64,000 nucleotides of DNA, taken from positions 1-64,000 of the forward strand of contig PHFX01000155.1 in assembly GCA_007618135.1 (NCBI GenBank). The letters are read 5' to 3'. Below the pieces are notes generated by a model. The model had not been told where the DNA came from. It searched no databases and worked only from the letters and a program-made list of their open reading frames with translations. The position numbers and the translations under genes are program-made. Shown here piece by piece: positions 24,623 to 48,785 of the stretch (its first letter is position 1; each line of letters starts with the position of its first letter). This stretch comes from Candidatus Brocadia sp. WS118. Its GTDB lineage: Bacteria > Planctomycetota > Brocadiia > Brocadiales > Brocadiaceae.

Positions 24623-24741
24623 GACAGCCTCCCTGATCGATATTTTTCGATCATTTTACATCTAAAAAAACTCAGTAATAAAAAATTGCATTTAGAACGG
24701 AAAATAGTTGTACAAATAATATTTTGAATTCAAAGTTAAAA

Positions 24742-24846
24742 TAACAATTTAGTGTTTTGAAAAAGTAGGGATGAAGCATTTGCTATAATTGTCATGAACG
24801 CATTCATATTCATACCAAAACGGGCATATGCTTAGCCACTACCCCC
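24742..24846. mobile_element. degenerate MITE copy
   Basis: The left end TAACAATTTAGTGTTTTG and the inner arm GTAGGGATGAAGCATTTGCTAT are clear, but the right arm is decayed (CATATGCTTAGCCACTACC) and the right terminal repeat is missing. An old remnant of the family seen intact at 41232 and 48327. Confidence 0.65.
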
Positions 24847-26926: not shown

Positions 26927-27064
26927 GAGGACACCAGACTAATAGGGAATTGCTTCTGACACTACGGGTTTACTGCTTCATCTTAGTGCCACCGAAACGA
27001 GTTTCTCCACCGGCAGCCTATGTGCAAATTCTTACCTGATCAGGTGAAAGAAACCTATTTCTCT

Positions 27065-27190
27065 GTAACAATTTAGCTTTTTGAAAAACCCGTATATTTA
27101 TTTACGTAAATTCAACACAAAACGGAATACGTAGCGCGGGTGGTTTATCCCCCGCCCAATGCTACATTTTTCAAAAAGCTAAATTGTTAC
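27065..27190. mobile_element. MITE copy with 8-bp target duplication and different core
   Basis: Perfect 24-bp terminal inverted repeats starting GTAACAATTTAGCTTTTTG, flanked on both sides by ATTTCTCT (8-bp duplication). The core is not the usual GTAGGGGCG palindrome but GTAGCGCGGGTGGTTTATCC...GCTAC (27131-27165), a module also found at 49396 and 61440. Both ends share the same T-to-C change against other copies. Confidence 0.88.
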
Positions 27191-27453
27191 ATTTCTCTAA
27201 ATTTTGTGTTAAAAGTAACCAAAAACGAAGAAAATTGCAAGTTTTTTTTAATTCTTTCAGCTTAACTAAATGAAGAAGGCAGGACAAATCTTTTTTAGCA
27301 ATGCGTGTTTGTTTTTTCATAACTTTGATTTCTTCCTGGTATTTACTTTCGCTTTTTATCCTGGTTACTACTTTCTTGAGAGCTTTACTTACGCTCGATC
27401 CTTGTATACCAAAAATATCTCTTCTATCTCTGTATTCTTCGTATTACTCATTT

Positions 27454-37217: not shown

Positions 37218-38720
37218 TTAAAGCGCTTCTACCCGGTTCCTTCCTTCTTCTTTTGCCTTATGCAATGCCTTGTTTGCAAGCTTTATCAGGGTTTCCTGTT
37301 CTTTTCCATGCTCCGGGTATGAAGCAATTCCAATGCTCATGGTTATTTTAAGCGTCTGTCCCGATACAATATCATCAAAGTCAGTGACTTCAATAATTCT
37401 CCGAATTGCATCTGCCTTCACGAGGGCTTGTGTTGCGAACAATGCAGGCATAATAATGGCAAATTCTTCGCCGCCGTACCGTGCGACAACATCCGATTTA
37501 CTCACAGAATCACTCAGAACCCTGGCGATTTGTTGCAATAAACGGTCACCTGCCCTATTCCCGTAAGTGTCATTTAAATTTTTGAAATGATCCAAATCCA
37601 GAATAAGGAGGCTAACGTGTTCATTACGTCTTTTTGCCAGGAGCAACTGTTTGTCCAGTATCTCATTGAAGAATCTTCTATTGTATACCCCGGTAAGCTC
37701 GTCTGTTATGTTCTTATGTTTCGCGATATCCAGGAGTTCTAGCCGATGGAGAGACAAAGCAGTCAGCCCCACATAGTTTGATATAAGCCTATGGGTCTTT
37801 TCGTCGTCCCAGCAGCGAATATCTTTTTTTATCAACAGAACGATTCCAAACGTTATCCCGCCTGCTATTAAAGGAATGCATACATAACCACCCTGTTCTT
37901 TTTTGTGGATTACACACTCACAGGAATCATTTTTGGTGATGTCTTTTGTGAAGCATTCCTTGCCTGTTTTCATTACGCGGCATAGAGAGGGGTCAAGGAT
38001 GACTTCGTTCCTGATGAGTTCATTTACCGGCATAGAGGGATCTATGACAGGCACATACAGCATGTTTCTCTCTCTGTCCAGCATTATTGCGGCAACAATA
38101 TCCGGGTCAAAATGTTTTCGTAAGGCTAGAACCATATGCTTAAATACCGCATCCTCGGTTGCCGCATCGTTCATGGTCGTGGAATAGGACATGAAATCCT
38201 CGAGTTCCTTAATGTGTTTATTTCTTTCTTCTTCCGCCCGCTTTCGTTCAGTAATATCTTCTTTAACGGCAACGAAGTGAGTGATGGTACCCTGTGAGTT
38301 CTTTACCGCAGAAATGGATGCAAATTCCCAATAGAGTTCGCCATTCTTTTTCCTGTTACAAAATTCTCCCCGCCACTCCTTCCCCGCAGTAATGGTTTCC
38401 CACATTTGACGGAATTCCTCAGACGATACATTATCGGGTTTTAGGATGCGTGGATTTTTTCCTATGACTTCTTCGGGATGGTAGTCCGTTAACTGAGTGA
38501 ACTTGGGGTTTACGTATTCGATAATGCCACGGTTGTTCGTAATAACAACCGTGCTTGAACTTTGCTCTATGGCGCGGTATAACTTGCGAAGTTCTTCCTC
38601 TGCCCGTTTGCGTTCAATAATTTCAGCTTGCAGGTCTTTGTTTTTCTTTGCCAGTTCTTCAGCGGTGGTAGTTATGTCATTTTTCAGAGATACATCAGTT
38701 ATATTCAAAGCATCTTCCAT
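37218..38720 (-). CDS. PAS-GAF-GGDEF diguanylate cyclase
   Basis: A 500-residue cytoplasmic signalling protein. An N-terminal coiled coil (to about residue 45) leads into a PAS domain with PAC (about 48-165), a GAF-like domain with several cysteines (about 180-325, including DSCECVIHK), and a GGDEF domain (about 335-500). The active loop is RYGGEEF, so it should make c-di-GMP. The inhibitory I-site R-x-x-D, five residues upstream, reads S-K-S-D, so product inhibition is probably lost. It lies three genes downstream of a GEMM-I riboswitch, on the same strand. Confidence 0.93.
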   Translation of the reverse strand: MEDALNITDVSLKNDITTTAEELAKKNKDLQAEIIERKRAEEELRKLYRAIEQSSSTVVITNNRGIIEYVNPKFTQLTDYHPEEVIGKNPRILKPDNVSSEEFRQMWETITAGKEWRGEFCNRKKNGELYWEFASISAVKNSQGTITHFVAVKEDITERKRAEEERNKHIKELEDFMSYSTTMNDAATEDAVFKHMVLALRKHFDPDIVAAIMLDRERNMLYVPVIDPSMPVNELIRNEVILDPSLCRVMKTGKECFTKDITKNDSCECVIHKKEQGGYVCIPLIAGGITFGIVLLIKKDIRCWDDEKTHRLISNYVGLTALSLHRLELLDIAKHKNITDELTGVYNRRFFNEILDKQLLLAKRRNEHVSLLILDLDHFKNLNDTYGNRAGDRLLQQIARVLSDSVSKSDVVARYGGEEFAIIMPALFATQALVKADAIRRIIEVTDFDDIVSGQTLKITMSIGIASYPEHGKEQETLIKLANKALHKAKEEGRNRVEAL

Positions 38721-38879: not shown

Positions 38880-39833
38880 TCATACCAGCGAACCCCCGCA
38901 ACTGCTTCCAGCCCCTGCCGTGCAACCAAAGCAGTGTGCTCCGGTTGCAATGAAACCATAATTAAATTCCTCAAAAGATTCAATATCCCATATTGTCCTG
39001 AGACGACCCCCAACCGGGATTTCAAGCATCTGATTAAAGTCGCAGTCATAGAGCCGGCCATCCCAACCAACTGAAATAAGCGTCCTGCACATCACAGTAT
39101 CAATCGTCTGCGGGTTAAAGGCGTTAACAAGCAGCTCCCGGTAGCCTTCCGCTTGACCGGTATGTGCAAGGTATTCCCCCCATCGCCTGATGGGCATATT
39201 CACCATGGTATACAAATGATTGAAAACAATGCCGAATTGCTCCCATAGTTTCTTTTTATACTGATTTTCTAACGCCTCCTGAGGCGGTGGAAGGAAAGCT
39301 CCACCAGGGTTATAGACCAGAGTTAAGCTCAATCCGCTTCCTTCAACTCCAAATCCGAGGGCATTGAGTTTTTGTAATGCATCGATGCTCGTGTCGAATA
39401 CGCCACGACCACGCTGTTTATCCACGTTTTCCCTGGAATAACAGGGTAACGAAGCAACCACTTCAACGCAATGATCCCGGAAAAATTTCGCCAGGTCTTC
39501 CTGCCCTTTAACCTGCAAGACGGTGAGATTACATCGGTCCATAACACGACGTCCCAAAGCGCGAACCCGTAGAATCATATACCGGAACGCCGGATGAAGT
39601 TCCGGGGCGCCTCCCGTGAAATCAACGAGATCAATTGACGGCGTATTGGCAAGCAAGACTAGGATACGGTCCACGGTTTTTGTCGACATCATCTCGGTTC
39701 GCTTTGGACCGGCATCTACATGACAGTGAATACAAGCCTGATTGCATAACTTCCCTACGTTTATCTGAAGCGTTTTAAGATTTTTGCGTTTTAATTGGAT
39801 ACCGAAGTGTTTTAATGTATCTTCAAAATTCAT
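38880..39833 (-). CDS. arsS: ArsS-family radical SAM protein (arsenosugar biosynthesis type)
   Basis: A 317-residue radical SAM enzyme. The cluster motif is CNQACIHC (C-x3-C-x2-C, residues about 30-37), and VDFTGGAPELHP and the DUF3641-type C-terminus with DCDFNQML and HCFGCTAGAGSSCGG are characteristic. ArsS joins dimethylarsenate to the 5'-deoxyadenosyl group of SAM. No ArsM or other ars gene is seen in the window, so the substrate is not proven. It begins 8 bp after tlpA, so the two are co-expressed. Confidence 0.87.
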   Translation of the reverse strand: MNFEDTLKHFGIQLKRKNLKTLQINVGKLCNQACIHCHVDAGPKRTEMMSTKTVDRILVLLANTPSIDLVDFTGGAPELHPAFRYMILRVRALGRRVMDRCNLTVLQVKGQEDLAKFFRDHCVEVVASLPCYSRENVDKQRGRGVFDTSIDALQKLNALGFGVEGSGLSLTLVYNPGGAFLPPPQEALENQYKKKLWEQFGIVFNHLYTMVNMPIRRWGEYLAHTGQAEGYRELLVNAFNPQTIDTVMCRTLISVGWDGRLYDCDFNQMLEIPVGGRLRTIWDIESFEEFNYGFIATGAHCFGCTAGAGSSCGGSLV

Positions 39834-39841
39834 CTCTGTTA

Positions 39842-40324
39842 TTATTTTAACAACTTGCTCAGTTCCGCATCCAAATCTTCTTCTGCAATATAACCAACAT
39901 GCGTATTGACAGCTTTGCCGTCTTTCCCGTAAACAATCGTGGTTGGATACGCTTGCAAATTGTATGCAGCACCGATATCGCCTCCGTCAAGGTAGATGGG
40001 ATAATTGACGCCTAATGATTTTATAAACGGCGGGACCACCTCCGGCCCGTTTTCATCAAAGGCAACACCAATAATCTCGAAACCCTTGTCCTTGTATTTC
40101 TTATAAAGATTGATAAAACCTGGCATCTCTTTCCTGCACGGCGGACACCACGTTGCCCACAGATTGAGGACCACCACCTTGCCTTTATTGCTCTGAAGTA
40201 AAGTATTTAATTCCGCAAGTTTTATCTTTTTGACCGTACTTTCTGCGTGAGAAATCGTTGATACAGAACCGATCGAAACAGTTAGAAATAAAATAGGCAT
40301 AAACCAAGATAGTGTTTTGTTCAT
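39842..40324 (-). CDS. tlpA: TlpA-like thioredoxin-fold protein
   Basis: A 160-residue exported thiol-disulfide oxidoreductase. A signal peptide (about 1-27) is followed by a thioredoxin fold with the active site WATWCPPCRKE and the cis-Pro region QAYPTTIVYG. TlpA/ResA proteins keep cysteines reduced outside the membrane, for example for cytochrome c maturation. It lies between the sCache-like gene (82 bp upstream) and arsS (8 bp downstream). Confidence 0.92.
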   Translation of the reverse strand: MNKTLSWFMPILFLTVSIGSVSTISHAESTVKKIKLAELNTLLQSNKGKVVVLNLWATWCPPCRKEMPGFINLYKKYKDKGFEIIGVAFDENGPEVVPPFIKSLGVNYPIYLDGGDIGAAYNLQAYPTTIVYGKDGKAVNTHVGYIAEEDLDAELSKLLK

Positions 40325-40406: not shown

Positions 40407-40976
40407 TTAAGGATAACCGGGATGCTCCCGCTTCGTGGGTTCAGGATATTCCCTTTCAATGATAATCGCCTTCTTCTCCCAGACATCTTTCTTTTCATTA
40501 TAGTTCCAGGTGTAATTTTCTTTTCCATTTACCTTATGGAGGGAAATGCCCTTTTTATCAATCGTGAAATAATTCCTGCTTTTCCCCTGCACAAAAAAAT
40601 CGAGATCGTAGGTCTTACCGTCCTTTCCTTTAAAGTCGGCACAGACAAAATACTCATTCTTTTTTGTCTGCGAGAGTTTTTCACGATGTATCTTGTCGAA
40701 AATGAGCTCCAGTTCTTTTTTTGTATGCTTATCATAGTATAGAAAAAGGCCTTCTTTTGAATTCTTCTGTATGTATTCTTCAGCAAATTTTGCCACATCC
40801 TCAAGGGTTACGATCGATTTCTCTTTCTCTTTGAGTCGCACCATTTGCTCCGGATGATCTGCTGATGCAGTGCACGAGATGTTTGTTTCCAAAGTAATTA
40901 CTAAGATTCCGACATACATCATGAATACGGCCGCAACGGCTGCCAAACCTTTCCTCAGTATTTTATATAAACACAT
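40407..40976 (-). CDS. exported sCache-like sensor or binding protein under riboswitch control
   Basis: A 189-residue protein with a membrane-spanning signal segment (LAAVAAVFMMYVGILVITL) and an extracytoplasmic domain. The stretch VTLEDVAKFAEEYIQ, then YYDKHTKKELELIFDK, then KNYFTIDKKG resembles a single-Cache (sCache_2) fold as in secreted small-molecule binding proteins. No kinase or chemotaxis output domain. The ATG at 40976 is chosen because AAAGGAG lies eight bases before it. A GEMM-I riboswitch ends 24 bp upstream, so expression should follow cyclic dinucleotide level. Function unknown. Confidence 0.75.
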   Translation of the reverse strand: MCLYKILRKGLAAVAAVFMMYVGILVITLETNISCTASADHPEQMVRLKEKEKSIVTLEDVAKFAEEYIQKNSKEGLFLYYDKHTKKELELIFDKIHREKLSQTKKNEYFVCADFKGKDGKTYDLDFFVQGKSRNYFTIDKKGISLHKVNGKENYTWNYNEKKDVWEKKAIIIEREYPEPTKREHPGYP

Positions 40977-40999
40977 TCTTGCTTCTCCTTTCATGTAAA

Positions 41000-41150
41000 G
41001 AAAAAAGCCTTACTGCAAAGATATTCATTGAAACCTCTTTGGCAGTAAGGCTGTCTTTTTATCAGATGTAGGGGCGTATAGCAATACGCCCCTACAAAAG
41101 ACCCTTATACTTTGCGTCCCCCGATCGCTCAGGGTTTGCCTTTTTCGAAA
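41000..41150 (-). promoter_or_regulatory. GEMM-I riboswitch (c-di-GMP-I class) with terminator platform
   Basis: Minus-strand sequence shows the GEMM core: AAAGGCAAACC, the hairpin CCCTGA-GCGA-TCGGGG closed by a GNRA tetraloop, then GGGACGCAAAG (41120-41110). The second arm is TAAGGGTCTTTT...AAAAGACAGCCTTA ending CTGCC, the same layout as Geobacter-type members (ACGGGTCT...AGACAGCCGGG). The 3' strand AGCCTTACTGCCAAAGA (41052-41036) can instead pair with TCTTTGCAGTAAGGCT (41021-41006), followed by TTTTTTC: an intrinsic terminator. Ligand binding would hold the 3' strand and permit transcription (an ON switch). It controls the gene at 40976. Ligand could be c-di-GMP or 3',3'-cGAMP. Confidence 0.9.
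41067..41096. repeat. GTAGGGGCG palindrome inside the riboswitch
   Basis: TGTAGGGGCGTA and TACGCCCCTACA form a perfect 12-bp stem with a six-base loop. It lies at the tip of the second aptamer arm and matches the core palindrome of the MITEs at 413, 41232 and 48327. Confidence 0.85.
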
Positions 41151-41231
41151 TGTATTAATATCACCTATGTATATAAACTTGTACAGCAATTTATGTCAAG
41201 CAAAAAGTACTGGTTCAAACATAAATAGATC

Positions 41232-41381
41232 GTAACAATTTAGTTTTTTGAAAAAGTAGGGGCGAAGCATTTGCTGGCTTGTGTATGAACACATGTATAC
41301 CAACGATAGCAAATGCTTCGCCCCTACCCTGCGCGATAAACATCACCAGTATTTGATTATTTCAAAAAACTAAATTGTTAC
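41232..41381. mobile_element. MITE copy with 8-bp target duplication
   Basis: A 150-bp element with ends GTAACAATTTAG and CTAAATTGTTAC, internal palindrome GTAGGGGCGAAGCATTTGC / GCAAATGCTTCGCCCCTAC, and AATAGATC repeated directly on both sides. It lies between the riboswitch and hemC, divergent genes, so it could carry or disturb promoter elements. Confidence 0.92.
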
Positions 41382-41547
41382 AATAGATCAAATTTATTTT
41401 CACACGCCTGCTACCAAAAATACTCCTCTATAACCAGCGTATTGGCTGACAAAGTAGTTTGACACCTCTGGCATATTATGATATTATCGAAAACGGTTAT
41501 TCGCATTAATTCATCAATATTTTTATCATTCAGGGAGAGAATCTGCA

Positions 41548-42650: not shown

Positions 42651-44261
42651 CTATTTTGTCAGACTAACTTTCTCGATACGTCCTTCCCGGCGCAATCTGG
42701 CTGCCTCTGACTGAATTTTTGTAAACTCCATCATCATCGGCGCCTGACCCCACCACCAGGATACGTCCTGCTGGACGTGGGCAGTGCCTTTGTAACCCTG
42801 GAGTTTATACCAGAACCATAACCGGTTGTACATGTTCTCGATATTGGACGGATTATCTTGCTGTTGTAAGAACATACCATACACACCAAGAATTGGACCT
42901 ACTACCGGGAATTTGCCCTTCAAGGTCTTAAAGGCATTATAAATCGGCTCTCCAAGGAATGCCGGACTCAGCTGCTTCTCAATCCCGTCGCTTAAAGGAT
43001 ATGGATCCCTATCCGCAGCGCTGGGATAGAGGTAACCGTCGGCAATCAAGTCTTCAACAATCTTCTGTGCCCTGTCTGCCAGGGTATGTGCCTGGAACAT
43101 GAACTCATCCAATGATTTCAGATAGGTATCGGCAAAACGGTCACTATGGCATTTTGCGCAGACCTCTAACCAGTACGACCTCTTGGCAACATTTTCTTCC
43201 GAGTAGATATCGATTTTATCACCAATAATCTTAATGCCGTAAGGATAATCCTTCAGGGAAGACGTATATTCCAGATTCTTCGGCGGTATCGTACCCATAC
43301 GCCAGATACCCTTCATAACCGGATTGTGAATAAACCTGCCATGCTTTTCATACATGTGGCAGAACTGACATGTTGGGGTGCGATAGTCCTTTCCGGGTCT
43401 TACTTCAGACAATGGCCGGTTGAAATCAAAATGCTCTTCTTCCTTATGATAGATCACCCCATGCTTTGACTCGCCATAAGATTCAGCATCAGGATGGTCA
43501 GGACCCATGTGACAGGTAATACAGGCCTCTGGCTGTCTGCCTTCGGCGGCACTGAACTTATGTCGTGTATGACATACATCGCATTTCTCGGCTCCGGAAT
43601 GGCACAAATCACAGCCGTGCTGTCCGTACAAATACCCTCTTCGCGCAGCCTCTGCATACCATGGCACGATGGTATTTGCCTCCCACGACTGGATGTGATT
43701 GGGACGTCCCACTTCTCTCTCGCGCAGGAAATCATCGAACTGCGGCCTGTGGCATTCACCGCACACCTCGCCGGTGGGCATCCTGATCTGTTTCTTTTTT
43801 GTGTCAGCATGACAATCGAAACAATGTACTTCATTTAAAATCCTGTTAGTGCGTTTTTCAATTTCTGCCGTTCGTGCAGACAGATAGGGAGTGCTTTTAG
43901 GATTTTTATGGCCAGAACTTCTCCAGTCTCTCACAACACCCGGTGTCGCTTCCTCATGGCATGTTACGCATAAATCCCTTCGCTCTTTTTCGATAAAAAT
44001 AGAATGGTCCAGGTTTTTCATGGGTTCATAATGCCGGTTGGGCTGCCAGTACATATCCAGCATCTGCGGCTTGAAATAGTCTTTAAAAGGACCTGAACCC
44101 TCTTTCATTCCAACGTTATCTTTGTAAACAGCCCGGTACCAGTCGGGCGTCCCCTCATACAGATCTGGTGGCGTTTCCTTCTTGGGTGGTTGTTCGGCTG
44201 CCCACGCCACAGAAGTAAACAGCATCGCAGACAAACACAACCCTATTCCAAATTTTTTCAT
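42651..44261 (-). CDS. octaheme hydroxylamine-oxidoreductase-like cytochrome c
   Basis: A 536-residue exported multiheme protein. A signal peptide ends near AWA. Eight CxxCH motifs have first Cys at about residues 98, 147, 167, 217, 227, 247, 298 and 368, the HAO pattern, followed by a long helical C-terminal domain (to TKIQSEAARLRREGRIEK). HAO-family proteins of anammox bacteria oxidise hydroxylamine to NO, oxidise hydrazine to N2, or work in the reductive direction; a P460-type catalytic heme needs a cross-linking Tyr from the C-terminal region. In the tail motif AHVQQDVSWWWG I cannot confirm such a Tyr (candidates at about 485 and 490). ATG at 44261 follows GGAGGTG. Third gene of a three-gene operon. 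Confidence 0.93.
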   Translation of the reverse strand: MKKFGIGLCLSAMLFTSVAWAAEQPPKKETPPDLYEGTPDWYRAVYKDNVGMKEGSGPFKDYFKPQMLDMYWQPNRHYEPMKNLDHSIFIEKERRDLCVTCHEEATPGVVRDWRSSGHKNPKSTPYLSARTAEIEKRTNRILNEVHCFDCHADTKKKQIRMPTGEVCGECHRPQFDDFLREREVGRPNHIQSWEANTIVPWYAEAARRGYLYGQHGCDLCHSGAEKCDVCHTRHKFSAAEGRQPEACITCHMGPDHPDAESYGESKHGVIYHKEEEHFDFNRPLSEVRPGKDYRTPTCQFCHMYEKHGRFIHNPVMKGIWRMGTIPPKNLEYTSSLKDYPYGIKIIGDKIDIYSEENVAKRSYWLEVCAKCHSDRFADTYLKSLDEFMFQAHTLADRAQKIVEDLIADGYLYPSAADRDPYPLSDGIEKQLSPAFLGEPIYNAFKTLKGKFPVVGPILGVYGMFLQQQDNPSNIENMYNRLWFWYKLQGYKGTAHVQQDVSWWWGQAPMMMEFTKIQSEAARLRREGRIEKVSLTK

Positions 44262-44292
44262 TTCATTCACCTCCATAGGTATTAGATGCTAT

Positions 44293-48326: not shown

Positions 48327-48476
48327 GTAACAATTTAGTTTTTTGAAAAATTCCAATAATGGTGATTTTTGCCGTGCAATGTAGGGGCGAAGCATTTGCA
48401 ATAATTGGCATACATGCATTCATACCCAAACTGGCAAATGCTTCGCCCCTACTTTTTCAAAAAACTAAATTGTTAC
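48327..48476. mobile_element. MITE copy with 8-bp target duplication
   Basis: A 150-bp element, ends GTAACAATTTAG / CTAAATTGTTAC, core palindrome GTAGGGGCGAAGCATTTGC / GCAAATGCTTCGCCCCTAC, directly flanked by CTTCACGA on both sides. It inserted next to the 3' end of the methyltransferase relic. Confidence 0.93.
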
Positions 48477-48478
48477 CT

Positions 48479-48785
48479 TCACGATAAACATGTTACATTA
48501 TAAACCTTCAACACCTCATCTCCATAGTGGTTGATAACTTTGACAGCGATTTTGCTTTTTGCTGGTATTGAAAAGGGACGGCTTTTGGTCCTGTTCGTCC
48601 TTTCCCTTCCACACCAATTGCGGGTCAAGGGAAGGGTCGCGCGGATAGAGAATCTTTTTTGGTCTGGCTTCATCCTCTTTAACAAAATCCTTCAGCTCTG
48701 CGGTGGGGATGTTGGTGCGTTTATCCTTTTTATGGATATGTGCTTCTACAGGAGTATTTGCAGATGGATTCTTTTTCTTTGCCAT
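48479..48785 (-). pseudogene. relic of a type III-like DNA methyltransferase (Mod)
   Basis: The first 66 codons (KKDKRTNIPTAELKDFVKED...DPSLDPQLVWKGKDEQD) match the N-terminal region of site-specific adenine methyltransferases that partner BPTD_3080-like restriction enzymes. The sequence then shifts frame and continues as FSIPAKSKIAVKVINHYGDE plus a short tail, which looks like the C-terminal end of such a protein. The entire catalytic middle is missing, so a large internal deletion occurred. No motif I or DPPY remains. Confidence 0.75.

Follow-up and report, generated by a model that had tools for sequence, protein, structure and literature searches.

A predicted c-di-GMP-I ON riboswitch and its variable P3 tips in Candidatus Brocadia

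We analysed a 64,000-nt stretch of contig PHFX01000155.1 from Candidatus Brocadia sp. WS118 (hereafter the window) and identified a riboswitch aptamer on its minus strand which shares one arm with a downstream terminator. With a probability of roughly 0.82, we read it as a c-di-GMP-responsive transcriptional ON riboswitch whose P3 helix, devoid of a tetraloop receptor, carries tips that are exchangeable across Brocadia. The aptamer and the switch are themselves ordinary. The features of the locus, all on the minus strand, are as follows.

41170-41199, minus: candidate promoter, TTGACA (41199-41194), 18 nt, TATATA (41175-41170), read by eye
41038-41150, minus: c-di-GMP-I riboswitch aptamer (RF01051, 58.4 bits; RF03167, 57.5 bits)
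41140, minus: position equivalent to Vc2 G20, a G, which predicts c-di-GMP and not cGAMP (our own column assignment from the RF01051 alignment; rule from PMC6456294)
41119-41134, minus: P2 stem with a GCGA (GNRA) tetraloop at 41128-41125 (sequence and cmscan alignment)
41068-41095, minus: P3 tip insert of 28 nt, the REP-like palindrome GTAGGGGCGTATTGCTATACGCCCCTAC (sequence; tip folding z about -6.5)
41042-41051, minus: shared arm GCCUUACUGC, P3 3′ strand of the aptamer and 5′ arm of the terminator (computed folds)
41001-41016, minus: terminator 3′ arm GCAGUAAGGC (41016-41007) and U tract (41006-41001) (sequence and folding)
40985-40991, minus: Shine-Dalgarno sequence AAAGGAG, supporting a start at 40976
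40407-40976, minus: predicted exported protein of 189 aa, earlier called sCache (without a Pfam family; orthologs found)
39842-40324, minus: TlpA/ResA-like thioredoxin (PF08534; NF002854 below cut-off)
38880-39833, minus: ArsS, arsenosugar biosynthesis radical SAM protein (TIGR04167, 435.8 bits; PF12345)
37218-38720, minus: PAS-GGDEF diguanylate cyclase with a GGEEF motif and the canonical Asp (PF00990, PF13426, TIGR00254)

The aptamer and its switching logic

Searching Rfam with cmscan, we found in the window one c-di-GMP-I aptamer above the curated score. The RF01051 match at 41150-41038 covers the full model (1-87; E 7.6e-9) and well exceeds the gathering score of 35 bits, which confirms the GEMM-I assignment of the earlier note, and the core elements then proposed, GGCAAACC, the GCGA hairpin and GGGGACGCAAAG, were each found. 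The span then given, 41000-41150, holds a real feature but came with no strand, and about 41000-41200 is needed to take in the terminator and the promoter. At the same aptamer coordinates, RF03167 (c-di-GMP-I-GGC) falls 1.5 bits below its gathering score of 59, a cut-off that many siblings in the genus exceed, and a short search reported the window copy under RF03167 rather than RF01051. The copy has the core of the GGC subgroup and, like it, a P3 without the CUAAG/UAUG receptor, but differs from that subgroup by its score and by the 28-nt palindrome in the P3 tip; unlike the canonical Vc2 subtype of RF01051, it has no 11-nt tetraloop receptor in P3. We thus consider it a predicted c-di-GMP-binding riboswitch of class c-di-GMP-I, nearest to the GGC subgroup.

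The two terminator arms pair at 10 of 10 positions and are followed by six U, and the isolated hairpin has a computed energy of -22.7 kcal/mol, in agreement with the competing terminator proposed before. The candidate promoter, 20 nt upstream of the aptamer, was missed by our consensus promoter scan, since that scan accepts only -10 hexamers ending in T; the output of the promoter and terminator scans was near chance level. Of the 126 distinct related copies compared (four genomes plus orthologs), about 103 have the platform with the shared arm and the terminator, which indicates that the terminator pairing is not due to chance. When terminator arms were shuffled among copies, the real pairing (9.76 of 10) was only modestly above that of the shuffles (9.45; maximum 9.60), because the arms scarcely vary; a few compensatory changes were seen (GCCTTCCTGC/ACAGGAAGGT and GCCTTACTAC/GTAGTAAGGC).

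The switch logic was taken from folds of growing transcripts, in which the shared arm stays paired within the aptamer up to a transcript 3′ end of ~41013 and is wholly within the terminator thereafter. The terminator fold is ~18 kcal/mol lower than the aptamer fold in secondary-structure energy and, thus, the switch must be kinetic. These computed folds support the earlier proposals that the 3′ arm of the aptamer doubles as a terminator arm (by our analysis the 5′ arm, where the note had the 3′-proximal one) and that two mutually exclusive structures sharing one strand make an ON switch. The arrangement resembles the cGAMP-responsive pilM ON riboswitch of Geobacter metallireducens, in which the 3′ strand of the aptamer likewise builds the terminator, the two folds likewise exclude each other and the pocket C is sequestered once the terminator forms (PMC9262584); the shared arm in the window also runs as far as the pocket's 3′ end. 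Unlike pilM, the window switch is predicted to respond to c-di-GMP and has a long, variable P3 tip. A transcriptional ON switch is therefore our best reading, with ligand control inferred. Before the 3′ arm of the terminator is made, GCCUUACUGC pairs inside the aptamer in the computed folds, and c-di-GMP binding during the ~25–30 nt of transcription that separate the arms may hold the aptamer in place, so that the polymerase would read into the gene of the 189-aa protein, and potentially, across an 82-nt gap, into those of TlpA and ArsS too.

It is quite improbable that the hairpin is instead a constitutive attenuator, or part of an OFF switch. The far greater stability of the terminator would fit such an element, yet both folds need the same arm, and pilM, a known ON switch, behaves alike (PMC9262584). 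Somewhat less probable still is an aptamer reduced to a relic by the palindrome. P1 of the window copy is indeed weakened by the loss of one pair (CCA where CCG is expected) and its tip holds the insert, but the core, the GNRA loop and the platform are unbroken, the part of P3 beneath the insert still forms on folding, copies with the same platform ordinarily carry P3 tips of 8–98 nt, and seven other Brocadia genomes retain the riboswitch ahead of the same gene.

Geobacter cGAMP riboswitches have a similarly minimal P3 without a receptor, and the earlier note had raised 3′,3′-cGAMP as a ligand of some members of the class. Along with the receptor-less P3 of the Brocadia copies, the A at position 20 in one sister copy (L139) would fit cGAMP sensing of the Geobacter GEMM-Ib style. 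The window copy, however, has G there, as do 117 of the 118 readable copies, and the A20G change in Gmet_0970 shifts selectivity from cGAMP to c-di-GMP (PMC6456294). Moreover, the GGDEF protein of the directon has an Asp nine residues past the base-binding Asn (NDTYGNRAGD, by our own reading), where Hypr enzymes have Ser, and is thus of the canonical diguanylate cyclase type. The G at position 20 and the Asp-type GGDEF together make c-di-GMP the predicted ligand, and cGAMP sensing by the window copy is very unlikely.

Genes around the switch

As AAAGGAG lies just upstream of it, the start of the first gene was re-assigned to 40976, which is probably the correct start rather than 40994. No Pfam match was found in the 189-aa protein (E up to 5), 12 relatives gave no credible Pfam match and none to a Cache family, and Foldseek and VIA-align returned no Cache match either, so that the former sCache designation is not supported. 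The predicted model (mean pLDDT 72.9) has a weak NTF2/cystatin-like sheet resemblance, with Z under 8 and no confident match; the same domain is also found fused to a transglutaminase-like lipoprotein. On the other hand, the thioredoxin was correctly recognized as TlpA-like, and the radical SAM protein as ArsS, with a TIGR04167 score far above the cut-off of 300 bits.

The PAS-GGDEF gene, which the earlier note lacked, as it did the P3 tip insert and the 37-copy family described below, is the last of the same-strand run. Between it and the preceding gene lie 160 nt that include a promoter-like site (38772-38744), perhaps its own, and co-transcription is thus only possible. The presence of a diguanylate cyclase in the same run suggests feedback.

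The idea of a gene set headed by the riboswitch holds in part. The riboswitch and the first gene are kept in most other Brocadia, but the whole set is not a stable regulon: in several Brocadia genomes, TlpA and ArsS are absent, incomplete or outside the sequence in view. A number of genomes do have ArsS after the riboswitch and the 189-aa gene, three with the complete protein and two with a partial or cut one; TlpA is often lost, cut or degraded, with some contigs ending nearby. By comparison of these loci, the conserved unit is the riboswitch with the 189-aa gene, this predicted exported protein being the only one consistently kept behind the switch.

The riboswitch is flanked on its other side by hemC and, adjoining hemC, a multihaem cytochrome (42651-44276). 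This cytochrome is distantly related to hydrazine dehydrogenase, with a score of 126 bits against a cut-off of 900, and is 91–98% conserved across Brocadia. We also identified a MITE-like repeat of ~150 nt with terminal inverted repeats GTAACAATTTAGTTTTTTGAAAAA, some copies of which hold the palindrome GTAGGGGCGAAGCATTTGC; it occurs in the window at 41229-41387, 407-565, 24735-24803, 27064-27191 and 48327-48479, one copy sitting between the riboswitch promoter and hemC. Two further RNAs were detected: an int-alpA RNA (RF02996) at L077 15805-15871, close to where the contig of the window ends, and an Acido-Lenti-1 RNA (RF01687) at L069 1316-1361, in the same region of another Brocadia genome.

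P3 tips and palindromic repeats

The P3 tetraloop receptor was absent from the window copy and from all 97 copies examined in three Brocadia genomes; the related genome G022 has five copies that possess it. A P3 without the 11-nt receptor would leave its tip free of that tertiary contact, and so replaceable. The tip is hypervariable in the copies of the genus that we examined. In the window copy it is a palindrome with the arms GTAGGGGCG...CGCCCCTAC, degenerate versions of which occupy the same place in four copies of the same genome (L012, L025, L026 and L029). A near-identical GTAGGGGCGTATTGCAATACGCCCCTAC stands isolated at C3:24817, and GTAGGGGCGACC palindromes occur inside frames that bear VMPNHLHGIIII, a signature of Y1 transposases, for which reasons we call the tip REP-like. 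The window-type palindrome has five perfect matches per strand, three of them inside apparent Y1 transposase frames, read by eye; the genome has 12 Y1_Tnp matches. The likeness in sequence to REP elements and RAYT transposases lies in a GTAG-headed palindrome and in related palindromes within Y1-transposase-like genes; unlike REP elements, the window palindrome is the tip of a riboswitch helix. Rickettsia palindromic elements are selfish palindromic repeats tolerated inside genes, but they belong to another lineage and differ in sequence, while the repeats described here lie in riboswitch hairpin tips.

None of the riboswitches of the seven other Brocadia genomes has the window tip: five carry GTTTAAAC palindromes, two have TTTTCC-GGAAAA, and the orthologs of L025 and L029 likewise carry GTTTAAAC tips. 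Between the window copy and its orthologs, identity is 0.52–0.58 in the tip, 0.67–0.91 in the terminator loop and 0.63–0.94 in the downstream leader; against copies of its own genome with the same tip type, the tip reaches 0.77–0.85, whereas the downstream leader is only 0.60–0.69. Orthologs of the switch have the core, the terminator loop and the leader in common but differ in their palindromic tips, and one tip type can be found at several unrelated loci of a single genome. Terminator loop identities overlap between orthologs and paralogs, and the aptamer cores are so similar that core identity alone cannot prove descent. Tip identity is below 0.7 in 12 of 16 reciprocal-best pairs, though their cores are 0.80–0.97 identical. 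An empty/filled pair was also found, with an 8-nt tip in L001 and L113 and a filled one in the ortholog L093. Three copies of the window genome share bases beyond the palindrome too (ATCTGAT.AAAAGA, ACCTGACAAAAAGA), which argues for conversion between c-di-GMP copies.

GTTTAAAC array clusters fall within riboswitches in 9 of 20 cases (p 2e-21) and 15 of 22 cases (p 1e-37) in the relatives G002 and G005, where riboswitches make up 0.13–0.16% of the genome, and all three array sites of G000 are in riboswitches. Among the sites initially outside, one turned out to belong to a c-di-GMP riboswitch and another to what is probably the relic of such a switch. Three more belong to cobalamin riboswitches, where they occupy the hairpin flanked by CCACUGG and GGGAAGG. 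Recombination among c-di-GMP aptamers cannot account for these three, and the repeats themselves must therefore move to, or originate at, such sites as well. Tandem cobalamin riboswitches (L202, L203 and L216) were observed in G002 and G005, several with GTTTAAAC palindromes; the inserts in their CCACUGG-GGGAAGG hairpin are mostly 32–38 nt long, one being 168 nt. A further palindrome, GAGACGCAT, has three sites in G022, every one at riboswitch coordinates, whereas neither G000 nor G002 matches it perfectly anywhere.

The P3 tips thus appear to have been exchanged between switches, and differently in relatives, an exchange which looks new; literature searches on anammox or Kuenenia riboswitches and on palindromes in riboswitches found nothing relevant. 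Alternatively, selfish palindromes may have been inserted and have decayed at each locus with no exchange between copies. The occurrence of the GTAGGGGCG palindrome family at C3:24817 and in apparent transposase genes favours this, as does GTTTAAAC in cobalamin riboswitches, which have no core in common with c-di-GMP-I; yet the post-palindrome bases shared by three copies are not expected from independent insertion, and we regard purely local insertion and decay as rather unlikely, though worth weighing. Under the exchange reading, near-identical cores across Brocadia would recombine and swap P3 tips, while dispersed palindromic repeats would occasionally insert into hairpin tips; the sequences do not separate gene conversion from repeat insertion, and both may contribute. 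Tentatively, and with considerable doubt, anammox riboswitch hairpin tips (P3 of c-di-GMP-I and the cobalamin hairpin) could be preferred landing or exchange sites of palindromic mobile repeats, perhaps via a single-strand Y1 transposase that prefers hairpins, so that tip swaps would repeatedly retune a genome-wide second-messenger regulon.

In L013 and L018 of the same genome, and in L139, L146 and L099, the tip holds an additional copy of the 3′ strand (e.g. GATAGCCTTACTGC), which is incomplete in some cases. It precedes the real one, as though the aptamer end had been duplicated within the tip, and could be a decoy arm.

A large riboswitch family in Brocadia

By pattern and model searches, on which all genome-wide counts rest, 37 c-di-GMP-I aptamer matches were found in the window genome and 20–58 in each of ten further genomes of Ca. 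Brocadia. The counts are 1–24 in the family's other genera; elsewhere in the order most genomes have few or no copies, although a single one reaches 10. For Geobacter sulfurreducens, 17 GEMM-I riboswitches have been reported (PMC8835794). L139 (Ca. Brocadia pituitae, AP021856.1, about 2823847-2823973), alone among the 118 copies in having A at position 20, is a candidate cGAMP-sensing member and precedes an ortholog of a sigma-54 activator gene. A second copy type, without the shared terminator and of the form GCCAUGGGUCUUC...GCCAGGUUGCC, includes L003, L011, L081, L085, L110-L112 and L114; it is often near a start codon and perhaps translational, and two such copies stand in tandem in G002 (2195099-2195292).

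The genes behind the copies of the window genome are mostly exported or surface-related, as called by automatic ORF prediction, in which some first genes may be wrong. Their products include subtilases, beta-helix, RCC1 and carboxypeptidase-regulatory repeats, DUF11, OmpH-like proteins and a caspase-like protein with PEGA, along with an amidase, a pseudopilin-like protein, a polysaccharide epimerase, a sigma-54 activator and CobS. With 20–58 c-di-GMP switches per genome, a large share of the cell-surface and matrix programme in the granule-forming anammox bacteria, organisms which are difficult to manipulate genetically, would be placed under one messenger. The palindromic repeats live inside what look like functional RNAs, and the exchangeable P3 tip would provide a natural library for how peripheral helices tune riboswitch kinetics.
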